Assembly: GCA_019637915.1 (NCBI GenBank)
Contig: JAHBUV010000001.1
Span: forward strand, 1,644,565-1,708,564
DNA: 64,000 nucleotides
From: Pseudobdellovibrionaceae bacterium
GTDB taxonomy: Bacteria; Bdellovibrionota; Bdellovibrionia; Bdellovibrionales; Bdellovibrionaceae
Direction of reading: 5' to 3'
The notes under the pieces are model-generated. The model was not told the origin of the DNA, made no database searches, and saw only the letters and a program-made list of their open reading frames with translations. Shown here piece by piece: positions 33,573 through 40,115 of the stretch; positions within the stretch are counted from its first letter, which is position 1, and each line of letters starts with the position of its first letter. The position numbers and the translations under genes were made by a program.

Positions 33573-33902
33573 TGCGGATTCCGGACGATGGGGATAGAAT
33601 GGTGCTTGAGAGGTTCGATTGGCGTCAAGCTCATCGAAAATAGAACCTTACAAGCATATTTTTCGGGGACTGTCCCTGACGATGGTGTGAAAGCCCAGCA
33701 CCGACTGGGAATCCTAAAGTCGTTATCATGGTCACCCACTTTGTGCACCGAGGTTCTGTTTCAGAGTAGCCGGTCGAGCCTTTTTTTATTGTCCCTTCTT
33801 GAGACGAATCGCCTTTTCTTTTCACGATGCCCGGCCGATTTTCCAGTCTTTCCGCCGGGGTTCCCCGTACAGTTCCCCCCCTGAAAACCCGATAAGTCCG
33901 GT
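33573..33902 (+). other. Intergenic region without a gene
   Basis: This 330-bp gap between the divergent small membrane protein and metalloprotease genes is more AT-rich than its surroundings. It contains a small perfect hairpin (GGGACTGTCCC near 33669) and a seven-T run at 33781-33787. I compared the stretch with known riboswitch and tRNA patterns from memory and saw no match; no clear -10/-35 pair was found. Confidence 0.4.
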
Positions 33903-35783
33903 ATGGTTTTGCTTTCTTTCCGGAACCGCATGCCGCGGCTTTCTTTTGTTTTTCTGGCGCCGCTTTTGGTGAGCGCCTGCGGCGGCGGCTTCAGCGGCGA
34001 CACGGGCGACGACAATCAACAGCAAAGCGCGGAGCCCGCTTACTGCGCGGCCACACAAAGTTACAGCGGCGGCGTCGCGGTGACGGGCGTGGCCCGTTAT
34101 GAATTCCGCGCCGTCGACACGGCCCTGGGCCTGAACGGCAATCCCATCGACGACACGATCCCCATGGCGGAAATTTCCGTGACCAACGCCGCCGGCGCGG
34201 TCGTGCAATGTGGCGCCACGGACGCGAGCGGCAACATCGCCCTCACCCTGCCCGCCGGCGCCGACACCTACACGCTGCGCGTGTTCTCGCGCTCGGAAAC
34301 GACCAAGCTCAAAATTTCCGTTCTCGAGGACTACTACGTCAACGCCCCCTACGCCCTGACCTCCACCTTCGCGGTCGCCGCCAACGACACGGCGAAGAAC
34401 ATCGGCACAATCACGGCCCGCGCCCGACTCAGCCAGTCCGCGAAACTGGAGGGCGGCGCTTTCAACATTTACAAGCAGATCTGGCGCGCCAACGAGTACC
34501 TGCGTTCCGCGACGGGGAACTCCTCCTTCGTCGCCCCGAAAGTCGCCGTGTACTGGAAAAAAGGATACAACCCTTACGACTACTTCGGCGGCGGCCCGCT
34601 CCTGTCCTTCTACCGCCCGGGTTACCGACAGCTTTTCATCCTCGGCGGCAACGGCGGGGCGGTCCACAACGTCGACACCGATCATTTCGACAATTCCATC
34701 ATCCTGCACGAGTACGGTCATTTCCTGGAGGACGCCTACGCGAAATCCGATTCGCCGGGCGGCAGTCACGACGGCGACTTCATCATCGATCCCCGCCTGG
34801 CGTGGTCGGAAGGCTGGGCCAACTACTTCCAGGCCGCCGTCATGCGCTCTTACGACAGCAACTGGCGCTATTACATCGACACCATGGGATTCAGCGGCGA
34901 CTCCGTCGAGAGCGGCACGGGCCGCCTCGTGATCAAGGTCGACATGACCATGACCAACGGCCGGTGCGCCGCCAGTCCCTGGCCCTTCGACAGCATCGAC
35001 TGCGACCCGGTCAGCGTGGCCGGCGAAGGCACCTACCGCGAAATGTCCATTTCCCGCTATCTGTTCAAAACCACCTCTTCCACCGGGGCCAATGTTCCCT
35101 TCAGCTCGGTCTGGCAGGCCTTCTCGAGCGGCAACAGCGGCGGCGTCGCGGTGGGCCTGGCCTCGCCGCTGGCGGCTTTCCGCAACGTCGGCCTGTTCAA
35201 CAGCTTTCTGAAAAACCTGATCACCGATCCGACCATGACCTCGGACTGGAACACCTTGCGCAACGAGGAAAAACAGGCCGACACGACCCACTACTACGCC
35301 GATAACCTCACCCGCACGACGGTGAACACCTGCGCCACGCGCGCCTTGAGCCCGACGGTGGACCTGGAGGACAGCGAGGAGATCATGCGCTCGAATCTCT
35401 TCACCTCGAATCACTTTTACCGCTTCGAACACGACGGCTCGAACAAATCCATCCGCGTCGAGTACACCGGCGGCTCCGTCAACATGGATCTGGATCTGCT
35501 GATTTATCAGGAAGACCACTACTACCAGGAAGAGCGCTATTATGAGAATTGGTGCAGAAGCGGCGGTGGGGGTATCATCGGCTGCTCTGCAAGGTCCTAT
35601 AGCACAGAGACTCCTCAAGGGTCCGAGCAGATTTCCCTGAACGGTCTCGCCGCCGGACGTTATCTGATCAACGTCAAAGCCCACACCATGGATAAGGCTT
35701 CCTATCAACTGAACGGGACCGCCCACTACCGCTTGAAAGTCATCCAGAACAGCACCACGGAGGATTTATGTCCCGCGCACTGA
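33903..35783 (+). CDS. Zinc metalloprotease-like (HExxH) lipoprotein
   Basis: A 626-residue secreted lipoprotein: lipobox LLVSA|C26 (or C17 if the ATG at 33930 is used). Residues ~55-170 look like a beta sandwich domain, with ISVTNAAGAVVQCGATDASGNIA suggesting a carboxypeptidase-regulatory-like fold. The catalytic site is H269-E-Y-G-H273 with a candidate third ligand E303 in SEGWANYF, a spacing that fits gluzincins. A C-terminal beta domain (about 480-620) with an aromatic, Gly-rich insert (YYQEERYYENWCRSGGGG) ends at DLCPAH. Its substrate is unknown. The 3' end overlaps the next gene by 16 bp. The insert region has lower GC than the rest. Confidence 0.8.
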   Translation: MVLLSFRNRMPRLSFVFLAPLLVSACGGGFSGDTGDDNQQQSAEPAYCAATQSYSGGVAVTGVARYEFRAVDTALGLNGNPIDDTIPMAEISVTNAAGAVVQCGATDASGNIALTLPAGADTYTLRVFSRSETTKLKISVLEDYYVNAPYALTSTFAVAANDTAKNIGTITARARLSQSAKLEGGAFNIYKQIWRANEYLRSATGNSSFVAPKVAVYWKKGYNPYDYFGGGPLLSFYRPGYRQLFILGGNGGAVHNVDTDHFDNSIILHEYGHFLEDAYAKSDSPGGSHDGDFIIDPRLAWSEGWANYFQAAVMRSYDSNWRYYIDTMGFSGDSVESGTGRLVIKVDMTMTNGRCAASPWPFDSIDCDPVSVAGEGTYREMSISRYLFKTTSSTGANVPFSSVWQAFSSGNSGGVAVGLASPLAAFRNVGLFNSFLKNLITDPTMTSDWNTLRNEEKQADTTHYYADNLTRTTVNTCATRALSPTVDLEDSEEIMRSNLFTSNHFYRFEHDGSNKSIRVEYTGGSVNMDLDLLIYQEDHYYQEERYYENWCRSGGGGIIGCSARSYSTETPQGSEQISLNGLAAGRYLINVKAHTMDKASYQLNGTAHYRLKVIQNSTTEDLCPAH

Positions 35784-36361
35784 TGTGGAAAATCGCGCTT
35801 TGCAGCCTCTTCGGCATGGCCATCGGTCTGGTGGGAACAGCCCTTTATTTCTCGAACGTCGAGGACACTCCGAAGAGCGGCCGACACCTGGCGGGCGCCG
35901 GCGGCGCGAAGCCCTTCATGATGGGCAAGCAGATGACCCTGGTGCAGGTGAACCTGCGCGCGCCCGAGGGCATCGCCGACCAGGACACCCAGGAAACGAC
36001 CCTGGTGGGCTGGATTCGCCTGAACCAGGCCCTGCCGGGGGCGGATCTGCATTTCAAATGGGAACTCCCCGAAGGCGTGCAGGTCGTGGAAGGCGTCGTC
36101 GAAGACAGCTGGGCCGGCCTGCAAAGCGGGCAAGTCAGCGAAACACGCCTGACGGTGACCGGTTTCAGCAAAGAAAGCCTGAAGCTCGTCGCTTTGCACG
36201 GTTTCCTGAAGTCCGGCACCAGTGAGGTCGGAAATTCCGCCGTCATCACCAGCCGCCCGGAAGACTCCTACGAGATGGTGAATTCCTCGGGGCTGGCCAC
36301 GGGCTTTCAAAAAACGACCAACAAAGAGCGGGCGCCCCTGAAGGGCCGCATTCTGCGCTAA
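35768..36361 (+). CDS. Membrane-anchored periplasmic protein coupled to the metalloprotease
   Basis: A 197-residue protein with one N-terminal membrane segment (about residues 8-27, IALCSLFGMAIGLVGTALYF) that may be an uncleaved anchor. The periplasmic part has an all-beta look (MTLVQVNLRAPEGIADQDTQ, LVGWIRLNQALPGADLHFKWELPEGVQVVEG) of the kind seen in immunoglobulin-like domains. No catalytic motif is visible. The start overlaps the metalloprotease gene by 16 bp, so the two are translationally coupled and may act together as protease and periplasmic adaptor or inhibitor. I do not recognise the family. Confidence 0.72.
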   Translation: MSRALMWKIALCSLFGMAIGLVGTALYFSNVEDTPKSGRHLAGAGGAKPFMMGKQMTLVQVNLRAPEGIADQDTQETTLVGWIRLNQALPGADLHFKWELPEGVQVVEGVVEDSWAGLQSGQVSETRLTVTGFSKESLKLVALHGFLKSGTSEVGNSAVITSRPEDSYEMVNSSGLATGFQKTTNKERAPLKGRILR

Positions 36362-36379: not shown

Positions 36380-37228
36380 CTAAGGTTTCACGGCGCGATC
36401 AAGGGAAGTCAGGTAATCCAGGAATTTCCGGCGGTACACGAGGTCGTGCGACCAGAAGGTGCTGCCGTGAACGCCGCCGGGAATCCGCCAGATCTCCTTC
36501 GGATCGCCGGCCAACTCATACAGGCGCTCGCCGTACTCGGGCTCCACCGCCAGATCACTTTGCCCGTGAATGATCAGCATCGGCACCGGGGACAGCTGCT
36601 GAATGCCCTTCGGGGCGTAGGAATCGGAAACCAGCAGGTAAGCCAGGGGCTGAAACGGCCACGTGATCCAGAATTGCGACAACTTGTTCGCGGCGATTTT
36701 CTGATAGGACGGAAAAGACGCGTCGATCACGATGGCCTTGTAGGGAATCTCCCCGCGCAATTCCAGGGCCGTCCGCAAGGCGACGTTGCCCCCCAGGCTG
36801 TGGCCATAAATGATCAAGGGCCGCGGATCCTTGTTCCGATGCACCCACTCCAACGCCGCGTGCCCCGCCTCCACCGTGCCTTTCGCGGTGGTTCGTCCCG
36901 TCGACCGCCCGTAACCGGGATAATCAAAAATCAGGTAGGAATAACCTTCTTTGGGCAGCCACATCAACGACGCGAAATGCGACGTCAGGTTTTCGGCGTT
37001 GCCGTGGAAAAAAACGATGGTGCCCTTGGAAGGCCGGACCGCGGACTCGAACCACCAGGCATGGATTTTCTCACCCGACCCGGTCGTGAACGTCACGTCT
37101 TCGGGCCGCAGGCCCGCTTGGGCCGGATCGAAATACGTTTTCGACGTCGGATAATAGAAAAACGTCATGCAGCCGCTGAGACCGAGGGCGAAAGCGCAGA
37201 AACAAACCCGCCCGAGCAAAACGCCCAT
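36380..37228 (-). CDS. Alpha/beta-hydrolase lipoprotein
   Basis: A 282-residue lipoprotein (lipobox GLSG|C20) with a complete alpha/beta-hydrolase fold: oxyanion HGNAENL near residue 75, nucleophile elbow G142-H-S144-L-G, acid D224 (HGQSDLAV) and catalytic H253 (GGVHGS). The sequence resembles serine hydrolases related to BEM46/YfhR; the substrate may be an ester or lipid. Its ATG overlaps the stop of the upstream DUF4105 gene by 1 bp (TGATG), so both are produced together at the envelope. The ATG at 37228 is preferred because it gives a proper signal peptide; a longer reading upstream would lie inside the other gene. Confidence 0.88.
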   Translation of the reverse strand: MGVLLGRVCFCAFALGLSGCMTFFYYPTSKTYFDPAQAGLRPEDVTFTTGSGEKIHAWWFESAVRPSKGTIVFFHGNAENLTSHFASLMWLPKEGYSYLIFDYPGYGRSTGRTTAKGTVEAGHAALEWVHRNKDPRPLIIYGHSLGGNVALRTALELRGEIPYKAIVIDASFPSYQKIAANKLSQFWITWPFQPLAYLLVSDSYAPKGIQQLSPVPMLIIHGQSDLAVEPEYGERLYELAGDPKEIWRIPGGVHGSTFWSHDLVYRRKFLDYLTSLDRAVKP

Positions 37229-39147
37229 CAGTAATACCCGAAAAGCATGAGTTCCCCGCTTTGCGCGCCGAACGCGTCCTTCGCGCTGGCGCGCAAGCCC
37301 CAGTCGCGGGCGAACTGCCATTGCACCGTGGCCGAGATCTCGCGGAAGTCTTTGTCCTCGCGCCGCCTTTCGCGGCGCCACCAGCCTTCCGCCCCCGTCA
37401 CGAAACGCGGCGAAATCCTCGCCCGCACGCCCAAGGCGGGGCCCGCGGTGACGCGGAAATGATCAAAGCGCCCTTGCAAATCGTTTTTCAATCCGCCTTT
37501 GAGGCCGCCGAACAAAGACAGGCTATCGGAGGCGTTCGCCAGGGTCCAACCGCCGCCCAGCTGCAGGTTCATCACCGTCGTCGCGGGTTTTTCATCCCAG
37601 GGTTCACGCTCCCCGGCCACCTTCATCGACCAGGAATAATCCGGCGTCAGCCTCCGCCAGGGCGAGCGCGAGATCACCTCGAAGAGGGTCAGTTGTTCCA
37701 ACTCCAGACGGCGGATTTTTTCAGTCCAGGAGAAATTCCCCTCGAACATGGTGATTTGCGCGGAATCCGGGAAGCCCGGCTTGGGGTCGTAAAAATCATG
37801 CAGGGCGAAGCGGTAACTGAAAAGAAGGGACTCACGGCCCTCGCGGACTTTCCGGCCGCCCAGGCCCCACCTTCGCGAACCGTGGCCTCTGTGAGGCTCC
37901 TCTTCCACGGGCAGAGGGATGTCCAGCGGCGTTGAAATCGTGGGATTGTCGCCGCGACGGGATAGAACGCGGTTCTTGAACTGCGTGATCTTTTCCTCCG
38001 GCAACTGGATTTCATAAGGAAAGCGGTAATCGATCAAATCGACGGCGGCATCCAGAACGGCGCTTTGCCTTTCGAGGGCGGCGATCTCGTTCAAAGGCGC
38101 GAGGTCCCGGTCGTTCACGATCTTCAACACCGCGTTTTGCTCCGTCGCGGAGAGTGCGTCGAAACGCGCGAAAAGCTGGGTGCGCAAACTGGGCCGGTAG
38201 GTGACCGTTTTCACCAGGCCCGGCGTTTCCACCACCGCGTGCACGGTGTCCGCGGGCAGCACGAATTTTTTCAACTTCGCGACGATCTCCAGATCCGGGG
38301 CGGCGGCTTCGAGCGCCGTGAGGATGTGGAAACTGCAGTTTTCCGTCATGTACCAGTAGTCGGCGTAGCTCGAACCCAGTTCCCACAGGTGGTCCACCAG
38401 CATGCTCACTTGCGCGGGCGTGAGGCTTAGTTCGTACTGCCACAGATCGCGGGACTCGTGGTTGTTGTACTCACGGACTTTGTAATAATAAGGCACGCTG
38501 GTGAAGGTGCCCTTGAAACCCCCGAAAAGACCCTTCACGCCGTAAACGAAGGCGTTGTCGGTGTCGGGATCGGCGGCGTAATTGAACCCGTAATCCAGGA
38601 GTTCGTAGCGCCGCCCATCGCTTTGCGCGGGAACCTTGTTGACGCGCAAAAAGGTGTGCCCGAAAGCGGAAGAGGGGTTGTTCAGGTAGAAACTGGAAAA
38701 AACCAGGGACACGGAGGGGCCGGAGACGGCCTGACGATAGCGCTGCAGCAAGCCGCACTCGCGCCCGGGCCAGGTGATTTGCGGAAAACGTTCCCGCAAA
38801 AAGCGCTGACGGGCCGGAAAGCGGCAAAGCGCGCTGTCCTCTTCCTTGGAGGCCATGGCCTGGGGATCGAAAAAGGCCGTCAGCGTGGCTTGAAGCTCCG
38901 CTTCCGGGCTGGTTTTCCCCCGCGGGCTGAGAAAGAACTTCTCCCCGTCGATATCGCTTTCGGCTCCGAACAAGGTCGGGCGGAAATGCATGAGCTTCAG
39001 CCAGGCCTTGCCGTCGGAGGTCTTGTCGCTCCGGACGAGGCCCCGCGCCTGCTCCAGGGAAGAGGCCCGGGCTCCTTCCAACGGAAGAATCAGGAATGAA
39101 AGAAAAAGCAGAAGGGGCCAAAGGCCCCTTCCCGTGGAACGGATCAT
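37228..39147 (-). CDS. DUF4105 protein with C-terminal beta-barrel-like region (Lnb-like)
   Basis: A 639-residue exported protein. The signal peptide covers about residues 1-29 (cleavage near ARAS). The DUF4105 domain spans ~90-330 and shows the conserved NNPSSAFGHTFLRV (H164) and MTENCSFHIL (C271) motifs, which would form a papain/NlpC-like Cys-His pair. DUF4105 defines Lnb, the lipoprotein N-acyltransferase described in Bacteroides; that function is transferred here only by family. Residues ~440-639 have alternating beta strands ending in Tyr (LMLFGYY), consistent with an outer-membrane barrel. It is coupled to the downstream alpha/beta-hydrolase lipoprotein. Confidence 0.85.
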   Translation of the reverse strand: MIRSTGRGLWPLLLFLSFLILPLEGARASSLEQARGLVRSDKTSDGKAWLKLMHFRPTLFGAESDIDGEKFFLSPRGKTSPEAELQATLTAFFDPQAMASKEEDSALCRFPARQRFLRERFPQITWPGRECGLLQRYRQAVSGPSVSLVFSSFYLNNPSSAFGHTFLRVNKVPAQSDGRRYELLDYGFNYAADPDTDNAFVYGVKGLFGGFKGTFTSVPYYYKVREYNNHESRDLWQYELSLTPAQVSMLVDHLWELGSSYADYWYMTENCSFHILTALEAAAPDLEIVAKLKKFVLPADTVHAVVETPGLVKTVTYRPSLRTQLFARFDALSATEQNAVLKIVNDRDLAPLNEIAALERQSAVLDAAVDLIDYRFPYEIQLPEEKITQFKNRVLSRRGDNPTISTPLDIPLPVEEEPHRGHGSRRWGLGGRKVREGRESLLFSYRFALHDFYDPKPGFPDSAQITMFEGNFSWTEKIRRLELEQLTLFEVISRSPWRRLTPDYSWSMKVAGEREPWDEKPATTVMNLQLGGGWTLANASDSLSLFGGLKGGLKNDLQGRFDHFRVTAGPALGVRARISPRFVTGAEGWWRRERRREDKDFREISATVQWQFARDWGLRASAKDAFGAQSGELMLFGYY

Positions 39148-39169: not shown

Positions 39170-39622
39170 TCAAGCGCCGCAGACGTTGTGGGTCGCGGAC
39201 TGGATGCGGTTGCGGATCTCGGTCGCTTCCATTTTGGATTCAACGAAGATCGTGTTGTAGTTGGCTTTCACGGTCTTGCCGAACACGACGGTTTCGCAAC
39301 CCATCAGCTGGGAGAGACCGGCGAGGGTCTCGCCTTCACCGCGGGCGGCTTCTTTCGCCAGGGCGATTTTGTTCAGCTCGATGTAAGCGGGAACCTGCTC
39401 GGCGGATTTGAAGATGCCGCCTTCGGTGCAGTTCGAGGTTCCGGTGGTGATCCCGAAAGTCTGGCTGCCCGAGGTGCCGTTGGTGGTGGAGGCGAGAACT
39501 TGCTTCAAGCCTTTTTCCGAACCCATCACCATCGCGCCCAAACCGCAACCGGAGTCACCGTAAGCGGCGGCCATGGCGGAACCAGCGAACAACGTCACAA
39601 GAGAGAAAAGAATGGATTTCAT
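39170..39622 (-). CDS. DUF3015 exported protein (copy 1)
   Basis: A 150-residue exported protein of the DUF3015 type. The signal peptide ends at about residue 19 (GSAMA|A). The mature part contains the family pattern AYGDSGCGLGAMVMGSEKGLKQVLASTTNGTSGSQTFGIT, with cysteines that may pair. It is a paralogue of the gene 19 bp upstream (39642-40115); the two share the GCGLG, SEKG-KQVLA-TTNG and QTFGI blocks. DUF3015 genes occur in predatory Bdellovibrio-like genomes and some gammaproteobacteria. Their function is unknown. Confidence 0.85.
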   Translation of the reverse strand: MKSILFSLVTLFAGSAMAAAYGDSGCGLGAMVMGSEKGLKQVLASTTNGTSGSQTFGITTGTSNCTEGGIFKSAEQVPAYIELNKIALAKEAARGEGETLAGLSQLMGCETVVFGKTVKANYNTIFVESKMEATEIRNRIQSATHNVCGA

Positions 39623-39641: not shown

Positions 39642-40115
39642 TTAGATGTTGCAGCTACCGGCCGCGAGAGCCGTGATTTGTTCCGACGAAGCGCCACCGT
39701 GGGGGAAGCTTTTGCGGTAGTTGTTTTTCAGATTGCTGCCGAACTGCTCGCTGTCGCACTCGAGCATCCGGCCGAGGGTGGCCAGGGTCTCGCCTTGACC
39801 GCGGGCGATGTCGGTTTCCAGCGCGACTTTGTTGGTTTCAACGAAGTCGTTGGTTTTGGCGAAAATTCCGGCGCTGTCGCAGTTCAAGGAGCCCGTCGAG
39901 ATCCCGAACGTCTGGTTCCCGGAGATGCCGTTGGTGGTGGCGGCGAGGACTTGCTTCGCGCCTTTTTCGCTGCCGAACACCACGGAGCCCAAACCGCAAC
40001 CGGCGTCGCCGTAGCCTTGGCCGCTGAGGTCTTGGATCAGAGGTCTTTTTCCTTGAGCATGGGCCACGCCGAAGGCGAGGACCAAAGCCGCGCTGACAAA
40101 CAATTGCTTTTTCAT
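39642..40115 (-). CDS. DUF3015 exported protein (copy 2)
   Basis: A 157-residue DUF3015 paralogue. The signal peptide covers about residues 1-21 (cleavage after AHA). The mature part has YGDAGCGLGSVVFGSEKGAKQVLA, then TTNGISGNQTFGISTGSLNCD. The ATG at 40115 has AAAGG upstream. It is the first of two same-strand copies and ends 19 bp before the next begins, so they are probably in one transcript. The pair looks like a local tandem duplication with moderate divergence. The gap 40116-40279 upstream holds no gene that I can support. Confidence 0.85.
   Translation of the reverse strand: MKKQLFVSAALVLAFGVAHAQGKRPLIQDLSGQGYGDAGCGLGSVVFGSEKGAKQVLAATTNGISGNQTFGISTGSLNCDSAGIFAKTNDFVETNKVALETDIARGQGETLATLGRMLECDSEQFGSNLKNNYRKSFPHGGASSEQITALAAGSCNI

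Follow-up and report, generated by a model that had tools for sequence, protein, structure and literature searches.

The stretch of DNA analyzed here (the window) comprises 64,000 nucleotides (nt) of contig JAHBUV010000001.1 (positions 1,644,565 to 1,708,564) from the Pseudobdellovibrionaceae bacterium assembly GCA_019637915.1, a 3.3 Mb genome in 14 contigs that is 99.8% complete. Within the window, four closely spaced genes on the minus strand encode, in order, two DUF3015 proteins (b, then a), a DUF4105 enzyme and an alpha/beta-hydrolase lipoprotein (Table 1). We propose, with a probability of roughly 0.6, that this cluster encodes an envelope lipid-acyl system in which a putatively outer-membrane-tethered enzyme of the Lnb fold operates with an obligate DUF3015 partner, its substrate or its inhibitor. 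An earlier first-pass annotation of this DNA covered the enzyme and hydrolase genes; the closest partner of the enzyme is the pair of DUF3015 genes directly upstream, outside that interval. The start of the enzyme gene was set at the ATG at 39147 rather than at the TTG at 39243, to which the open frame extends within the DUF3015 gene, because a signal peptide comes directly after the ATG. At the other end, the TGA of the enzyme gene and the ATG of the hydrolase gene have base A 37228 in common.

Table 1. Features of the four-gene cluster, in the order of the minus strand (coordinates are those of the window; aa, amino acids)
Feature	Position	Strand	Details
DUF3015 protein b	39642..40115	-	157 aa; signal peptide by eye; Pfam PF11220, E 5.2e-34, 117.6 bits
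DUF3015 protein a	39170..39622	-	150 aa; signal peptide by eye; four Cys; PF11220, E 7.7e-40, 136.5 bits
DUF7843-Lnb_N(DUF4105)-DUF7840 protein, putative outer-membrane-tethered lipid-acyl enzyme	37228..39147	-	639 aa
Intrinsic-terminator-like hairpin followed by a U-rich tract	39110..39132	-	10 pairs, 7 of them G-C; within the enzyme signal-peptide codons
Predicted Lnb_N catalytic domain with H164 and C271	38218..38775	-	Residues 125-310 as aligned
C-terminal tail, barrel-like sequence with aromatic last residue	37231..37965	-	Residues 395-639
Alpha/beta-hydrolase lipoprotein	36380..37228	-	282 aa; lipobox LSGC; GHSLGG; S144-D225-H254; start overlaps enzyme stop (TGATG)

The enzyme harbors three Pfam domains: DUF7843 (residues 45-119, E-value (E) 8.5e-22), Lnb_N/DUF4105 (PF13387; residues 136-307, E 6.6e-49, 166.3 bits against a cut-off of 22.2) and DUF7840 (residues 416-624, E 1.8e-39). 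The same three domains occur in the same order in a paralogue encoded elsewhere in this genome and in two gammaproteobacterial proteins. We aligned 84 enzymes, namely the window protein, three gammaproteobacterial plasmid proteins and the products of 80 loci selected from 140 places in the bacterium's order, which are mostly full-length and leave out fragments and the near-duplicates of one genus. The DUF4105 domain with H164 and C271 proposed by the first-pass annotation was borne out: both residues lie where predicted, in the motifs GHTFLRV and NCSFHI, and are invariant in 84/84 proteins, as are, among others, C108, C131, R113, Y264, N270, E256 and P298. The conserved His precedes the conserved Cys, as in permuted NlpC/P60 lipid enzymes, and the excerpted passages of PMC12994826 (2026) place DUF4105 in the permuted NlpC/P60 group beside the phospholipase Tox-Act1. 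In these passages, Tox-Act1 is a sister clade of DUF4105 with the same His-then-Cys order at a similar spacing (H43/C151, compared with H164/C271 here); it is a secreted antibacterial effector, whereas the window enzyme is of an outer-membrane type by its sequence and has a conserved partner.

Among the closest known arrangements is the Gram-negative Pfam architecture DUF7843-Lnb_N-(DUF7842)-DUF7840, found for example in Pseudoalteromonas and Acinetobacter, which has the same domains in the same order and, in the three genera named below, DUF3015 upstream. The window differs from it in its two DUF3015 copies and its coupled lipoprotein hydrolase, and DUF7842 was not detected by Pfam in the window enzyme. 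A 55%-identity relative of the enzyme is present in a Bdellovibrionaceae metagenome-assembled genome (L006). Scans of IMG/VR for the enzyme domain and for DUF3015 returned no relatives, and an Acidobacteria match (L007) was dropped, being by eye a short match inside a 1203-amino-acid TonB-receptor-like protein. The window's genome also contains a third, weak Lnb_N match (L003, 1387-3180, minus strand), a long protein of other architecture in which only the Cys half is matched.

Both window DUF3015 proteins exceed the PF11220 cut-off of 25 bits, and one or two DUF3015 genes adjoin the enzyme gene in its relatives. DUF3015 lies at most 500 bp from the enzyme gene in 80 of the 84 fetched loci (upstream in 70 and downstream in 9 on the same strand, and on the opposite strand in 1), the exceptions being a locus with a distance of 1,276 bp (L053), a plasmid piece flanked by insertion sequences (IS; L090) and two loci at a contig edge (L096 and L099). 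Across 290 sampled genomes from the phylum, DUF3015 and Lnb_N (E<=1e-30) were each detected in 180; 179 genomes have both and 109 neither, with DUF3015 alone in G205, where Lnb_N has a weaker match (1.3e-21), and the enzyme alone in G316. The resulting phi coefficient of 0.985 depends on a threshold chosen after the scores were seen: at E<=0.001, where further Lnb_N proteins come in, 180 genomes have both, none DUF3015 only, 45 Lnb_N only and 65 neither, and phi is 0.69.

The pairing extends beyond the order, where 58/98 enzyme places and 60/96 DUF3015 places among the matches listed are paired within 2.5 kb. From the unpaired places among these matches, we fetched 20 of the 40 for the enzyme, of which 17 are adjoined by DUF3015 while in three the contig ends upstream, and 17 of the 36 for DUF3015, of which 15 have the enzyme; all five misses reach a contig end. 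A plasmid collection yielded nine records with DUF4105, eight of which carry DUF3015, always just upstream on the same strand, while no other record carries DUF3015; the remaining record is the L090 piece flanked by IS. Outside the phylum, Pseudoalteromonas, Salinivibrio and A. nosocomialis carry DUF3015 upstream of the enzyme gene, extending the pair to Acinetobacter and Vibrionaceae. On the Acinetobacter plasmids L090 (pJ9-3) and L131, DUF4105 adjoins blaADC; L131 has DUF3015 upstream of DUF4105, and in L090 DUF4105 and blaADC lie between ISAba1 copies without DUF3015.

Neighboring genes travel together, and the two families could be adjacent by inheritance alone, with unrelated functions. 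The pairwise distances of DUF3015 and enzyme proteins are strongly correlated (Mantel r 0.857, the best of 500 permutations reaching 0.142), a value that is no proof of contact since adjacent genes co-inherit. Even so, we find it hardly credible that inheritance accounts for the association: in the 290 genomes DUF3015 is always accompanied by an Lnb_N match and strong Lnb_N matches nearly always by DUF3015, the gene order of the pair varies between loci, and the pair is present in a second phylum.

Each of the four Cys of DUF3015 is kept in 74-78 of 80 paired proteins, and judging from this pattern they likely form two disulphides; the most conserved residues include no obvious acyl-accepting side chain. 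An AlphaFold model from four sequences has a mean predicted local distance difference test (pLDDT) score of 62 and is confident in its helical part only (blocks 78-87, residues 61-130), and a Foldseek search with it gave 0/12 matches at E<=0.001. A literature search by family names found nothing linking DUF3015 with DUF4105: the available text of PMC13066512 has DUF3015 in a list of downregulated Leptospira genes and does not mention DUF4105 there, and that of PMC11609419, a fungal secretome paper, contains the accession PF11220.

The first-pass annotation had related the enzyme to Lnb, a lipoprotein N-acyltransferase of Bacteroides (as cited in passages of PMC12994826 and PMC12345273). The two are alike in the Lnb_N/DUF4105 domain and in the His/Cys pair reported for the clade. 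However, identity as Lnb was not supported: compared with the cut-off of 550 set for the Lnb equivalog model NF051878, the enzyme reaches 13.1 bits. It differs further in its DUF7843 domain, its barrel-like DUF7840 tail, its pairing with DUF3015 and its coexistence with lnt. A genome search for lnt, which the first-pass annotation had suggested, detected it in the window's genome (244.9 bits, cut-off 132.9) and above the cut-off in 131/140 genomes of the order; some match was present in 139/140, and in 102/102 of the better genomes, with matches below the cut-off being unspecific (12/14 control genomes match, 7 above and 5 below it). Because lnt is present here and in most genomes of the order, the enzyme is no replacement for Lnt, and a role as its stand-in was ruled out. 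The enzyme could instead be a true Lnb acting at the outer membrane, where it would serve as a second N-acyltransferase of lipoproteins; the common domain and His/Cys pair would fit this, as would the repeated displacement of DUF4105 proteins by Lnt described in passages of PMC12994826. Given the equivalog score, the prevalence of lnt, the lack of a stretch resembling a transmembrane (TM) helix in 81/84 enzymes and the constant pairing with DUF3015, whose window copies have no lipobox by eye, we consider this quite improbable.

We then turn to the C-terminal tail, which the first-pass annotation had described as an extra barrel-like C-terminus. Its barrel-like sequence and aromatic end were confirmed; it is not extra, since it corresponds to the Pfam domain DUF7840 common to the relatives and present at the C-terminus of the Pseudoalteromonas and Acinetobacter proteins and of the paralogue as well. 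The window enzyme ends in Tyr (GYY), and the last residue is F, Y or W in 65/84 enzymes, compared with 17% of mechanically called open reading frames of more than 150 amino acids from the same loci. Toward the end, hydrophobic residues alternate at positions -5 to -10, and the last four positions are mostly hydrophobic. The tail has the top strand-amphipathicity score among the segments tested, with a mean strand-moment z-score of 1.99 that exceeds 2 in just 40% of proteins (DUF7843, 0.99; linker, 0.43; Lnb_N, 0.32; DUF3015, -0.28; hydrolase, -0.63). TM-helix-like stretches past residue 60 were found in 3/84 enzymes. A search of the PDB with the tail profile returned six sequences at E<=10, five of which are barrels, none of them significant (best barrel E 0.028). 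Amphipathic strands of modest score, an aromatic C-terminus and the lack of TM helices are the sequence traits of outer-membrane barrels, and suggest that the tail may adopt such a beta-barrel fold.

A further element of the cluster is the terminator-like hairpin, which lies about 40 nt past the DUF3015a stop; an 86-nt stretch around it has a folding z-score of -2.23, and 3/200 shuffles are as good. In a first scan of relatives, hairpins with a folding free energy (dG) <=-14 were present in 42/70 loci, compared with 0/280 windows within the enzyme gene. Under a strict rule (dG<=-10), a hairpin was found at 45/68 DUF3015-to-enzyme junctions and at 0/28 DUF3015-DUF3015, 0/13 enzyme-hydrolase, 0/9 enzyme-DUF3015, 0/5 hydrolase-DUF3015 and 0/1 DUF3015-hydrolase junctions, 2/136 other co-directional pairs and 8/1340 dinucleotide shuffles. 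Another 25 DUF3015-to-enzyme junctions, drawn from elsewhere in the phylum and from two records of Gammaproteobacteria, contributed 13 hairpins, with 0/18 in the pooled DUF3015-DUF3015, enzyme-hydrolase and enzyme-DUF3015 controls and 1/3 at DUF3015-hydrolase junctions. Under a looser rule, the pooled DUF3015-to-enzyme junctions have a hairpin in 80/94 cases at dG<=-11 (83 at -9 and 76 at -14), in comparison with 3/35 DUF3015-DUF3015 (3 and 2), 0/19 enzyme-hydrolase (2 and 0), 0/16 enzyme-DUF3015 (3 and 0) and 4/4 DUF3015-hydrolase junctions (4 and 2). Since the hairpin is present after the last DUF3015 gene and nearly absent from the controls, we regard it as the closing element of the DUF3015 unit.

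The position of the hairpin relative to the enzyme gene was surveyed in 67 loci, with start codons assigned by a heuristic and the strict rule applied without an energy limit. The hairpin or its U-tract overlaps the enzyme coding start in 38/67 loci, including the window (15 with the start codon in the hairpin, 20 with the hairpin in the coding sequence and 3 with the start in the U-tract), lies ahead of the start in 8/67 and is lacking in 21/67. Covariation was examined in three groups picked by hand: in a group of seven sequences, 4/12 pairs changed on both sides and 4 were broken in some member; in a group of six, 1/10 changed on both sides and 7 were broken; the pair of sequences including the window has no variation. 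The hairpin is predicted to terminate transcription; if it does, enzyme mRNA containing the start codon would arise in the 38 overlapping loci only by read-through, and the DUF3015 product would be more abundant than the enzyme. Alternatively, the hairpin could be an ordinary terminator of the DUF3015 transcript, with the enzyme gene served by its own promoter. The hairpin that follows the last DUF3015 gene even before a hydrolase gene (4/4 under the looser rule; 0/1 and 1/3 under the strict one) would agree with this, as would the loci in which it ends ahead of the enzyme start codon, but any start-codon transcript must cross it in the overlapping loci and a crude scan for promoters gave none on the minus strand of the region, making an ordinary terminator rather unlikely in our opinion. 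A parallel with lantibiotic operons, in which a terminator stands between precursor and modifying enzyme, is an analogy for which the literature passages gave no support.

The last member of the cluster is the lipoprotein hydrolase, whose lipobox, GHSLGG motif and stop/start overlap with the enzyme gene agree with the TGATG-coupled lipoprotein hydrolase described in the first pass. In 44 aligned hydrolases (the window protein included), the lipobox Cys (C20), S144 and D225 are conserved in 44/44 and H254 in 43/44, the triad being assigned by position and motif; a lipobox regular expression passes 34/44, although the Cys is aligned in all. Among the 140 genomes of the order, 76 have both a close hydrolase (E<=1e-36) and the enzyme (E<=1e-10), 16 the enzyme only, 2 the hydrolase only and 46 neither (phi 0.75). 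The predicted linkage of the two genes recurs in relatives: considering all 140 listed enzyme places and the best 90 hydrolase places, they lie at most 8 kb apart in 55/77 genomes of the order having both. By place, the hydrolase gene is downstream on the same strand in 27 (including the window), divergent in 23, upstream on the same strand in 5 and convergent in 2, and for 45 linked loci the layout must have changed 8 times or more on a FastTree tree, 25/81 of whose inner branches are weak. Outside the order, the hydrolase was found in 10/35 short loci containing the enzyme gene. The pairing of enzyme and hydrolase is real, not universal.

Taking together the domains, conserved residues, gene pairing and recurring hairpin found in these sequences, we propose the following model for the envelope system. 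The enzyme would be exported, and its Lnb_N domain would work through the Cys/His pair in the manner of permuted NlpC/P60 acyltransferases and phospholipases, with DUF7840 forming a beta-barrel that anchors the protein in the outer membrane and the catalytic domain lying in the periplasm. DUF3015 would be a small exported protein, probably stabilised by disulphides and indispensable to the enzyme, either as its substrate or acceptor or as an inhibitor or chaperone kept in excess. The hairpin would stop most transcripts after DUF3015, with read-through yielding a little enzyme; a surplus of the small exported DUF3015 relative to an acyl enzyme tethered to the outer membrane would suit a substrate or acceptor as well as the inhibitor of a lipase otherwise damaging to the envelope. 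The hydrolase would probably act on the same lipids, for example in clearing lyso-lipids.

Several observations weigh against this model, among them the threshold dependence of the co-occurrence, the co-inheritance behind the Mantel value and the modest tail scores and barrel matches given above. The Lnb_N profile has no convincing match to any solved structure, and an AlphaFold model of the enzyme from a two-sequence alignment (the window and L006) has a mean pLDDT of 35. A simple terminator scan of the window region gives 16 sites, compared with 7.3 in shuffles, such that single sites mean little. The paralogous DUF3015-enzyme pair (L048, 4399-6743, plus strand) has no hairpin under either rule, and at dG<=-9 a further 10 of the 94 junctions lack one too. 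Where DUF3015 lies downstream of the enzyme gene, hairpins are found in 0/16 junctions at -11 and 3/16 at -9, and therefore excess by hairpin is not universal. The hydrolase is near only 45/84 fetched loci, and none of the same kind was found within the 11.5 kb examined around L048.

For DUF3015, we favor a role as substrate or as inhibitor, without choosing between the two. If Lnb_N is a periplasmic thiol hydrolase or phospholipase harmful to the bacterium's own envelope, DUF3015 could be its dedicated inhibitor, kept in excess as in an effector-immunity pair. This would fit the near-perfect co-occurrence, the DUF3015 excess that the hairpin predicts and the sister clade Tox-Act1, which according to passages of PMC12994826 is a phospholipase with toxicity in the periplasm of E. 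coli and comes with an immunity protein. Against it, the neighbors viewed (six by Pfam, others by eye) are not secretion genes, although no systematic search was made, and DUF3015 is a single conserved family that tracks the enzyme distances. Immunity proteins usually diversify and swap, and we consider such a self-protective inhibitor unlikely, if still a serious contender. In its fullest form, our proposal is that a cysteine acyl enzyme of the Lnb fold, anchored in the outer membrane, has DUF3015 proteins as its dedicated substrates or as inhibitors made in excess, within an undescribed envelope lipid-modification system that spans at least two phyla and whose subunit ratio is set by a terminator hairpin nested in the start and signal-peptide codons of the enzyme; this we put forward tentatively, as a possibility on which we would not yet rely.

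In the surroundings of the cluster, a 6S RNA (RF00013, 66 bits, gathering threshold 46.4) lies at 33607-33786 on the plus strand and adjoins a gene that looks like xseA by eye. On the same strand, the gene at 33903-35783 encodes a lipoprotein with a metallopeptidase-like HEYGH motif by eye and no Pfam peptidase match, and is followed by a small gene at 35768-36361. These latter two genes are kept beside the cluster in L006, just past the hydrolase gene.

The association described here unites DUF3015 and the barrel-type DUF4105 proteins, neither of which has an assigned function, in a single system that can be tested, and culturable bacteria, Pseudoalteromonas and Acinetobacter among them, carry it too. 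PagP and PldA are acyl enzymes of the outer membrane. If the envelope lipid-acyl reading is true, another outer-membrane acyl enzyme would be added beside these two, and the hairpin would represent a compact control of the partner ratio, in which one stretch of DNA serves as both terminator and signal-peptide code.

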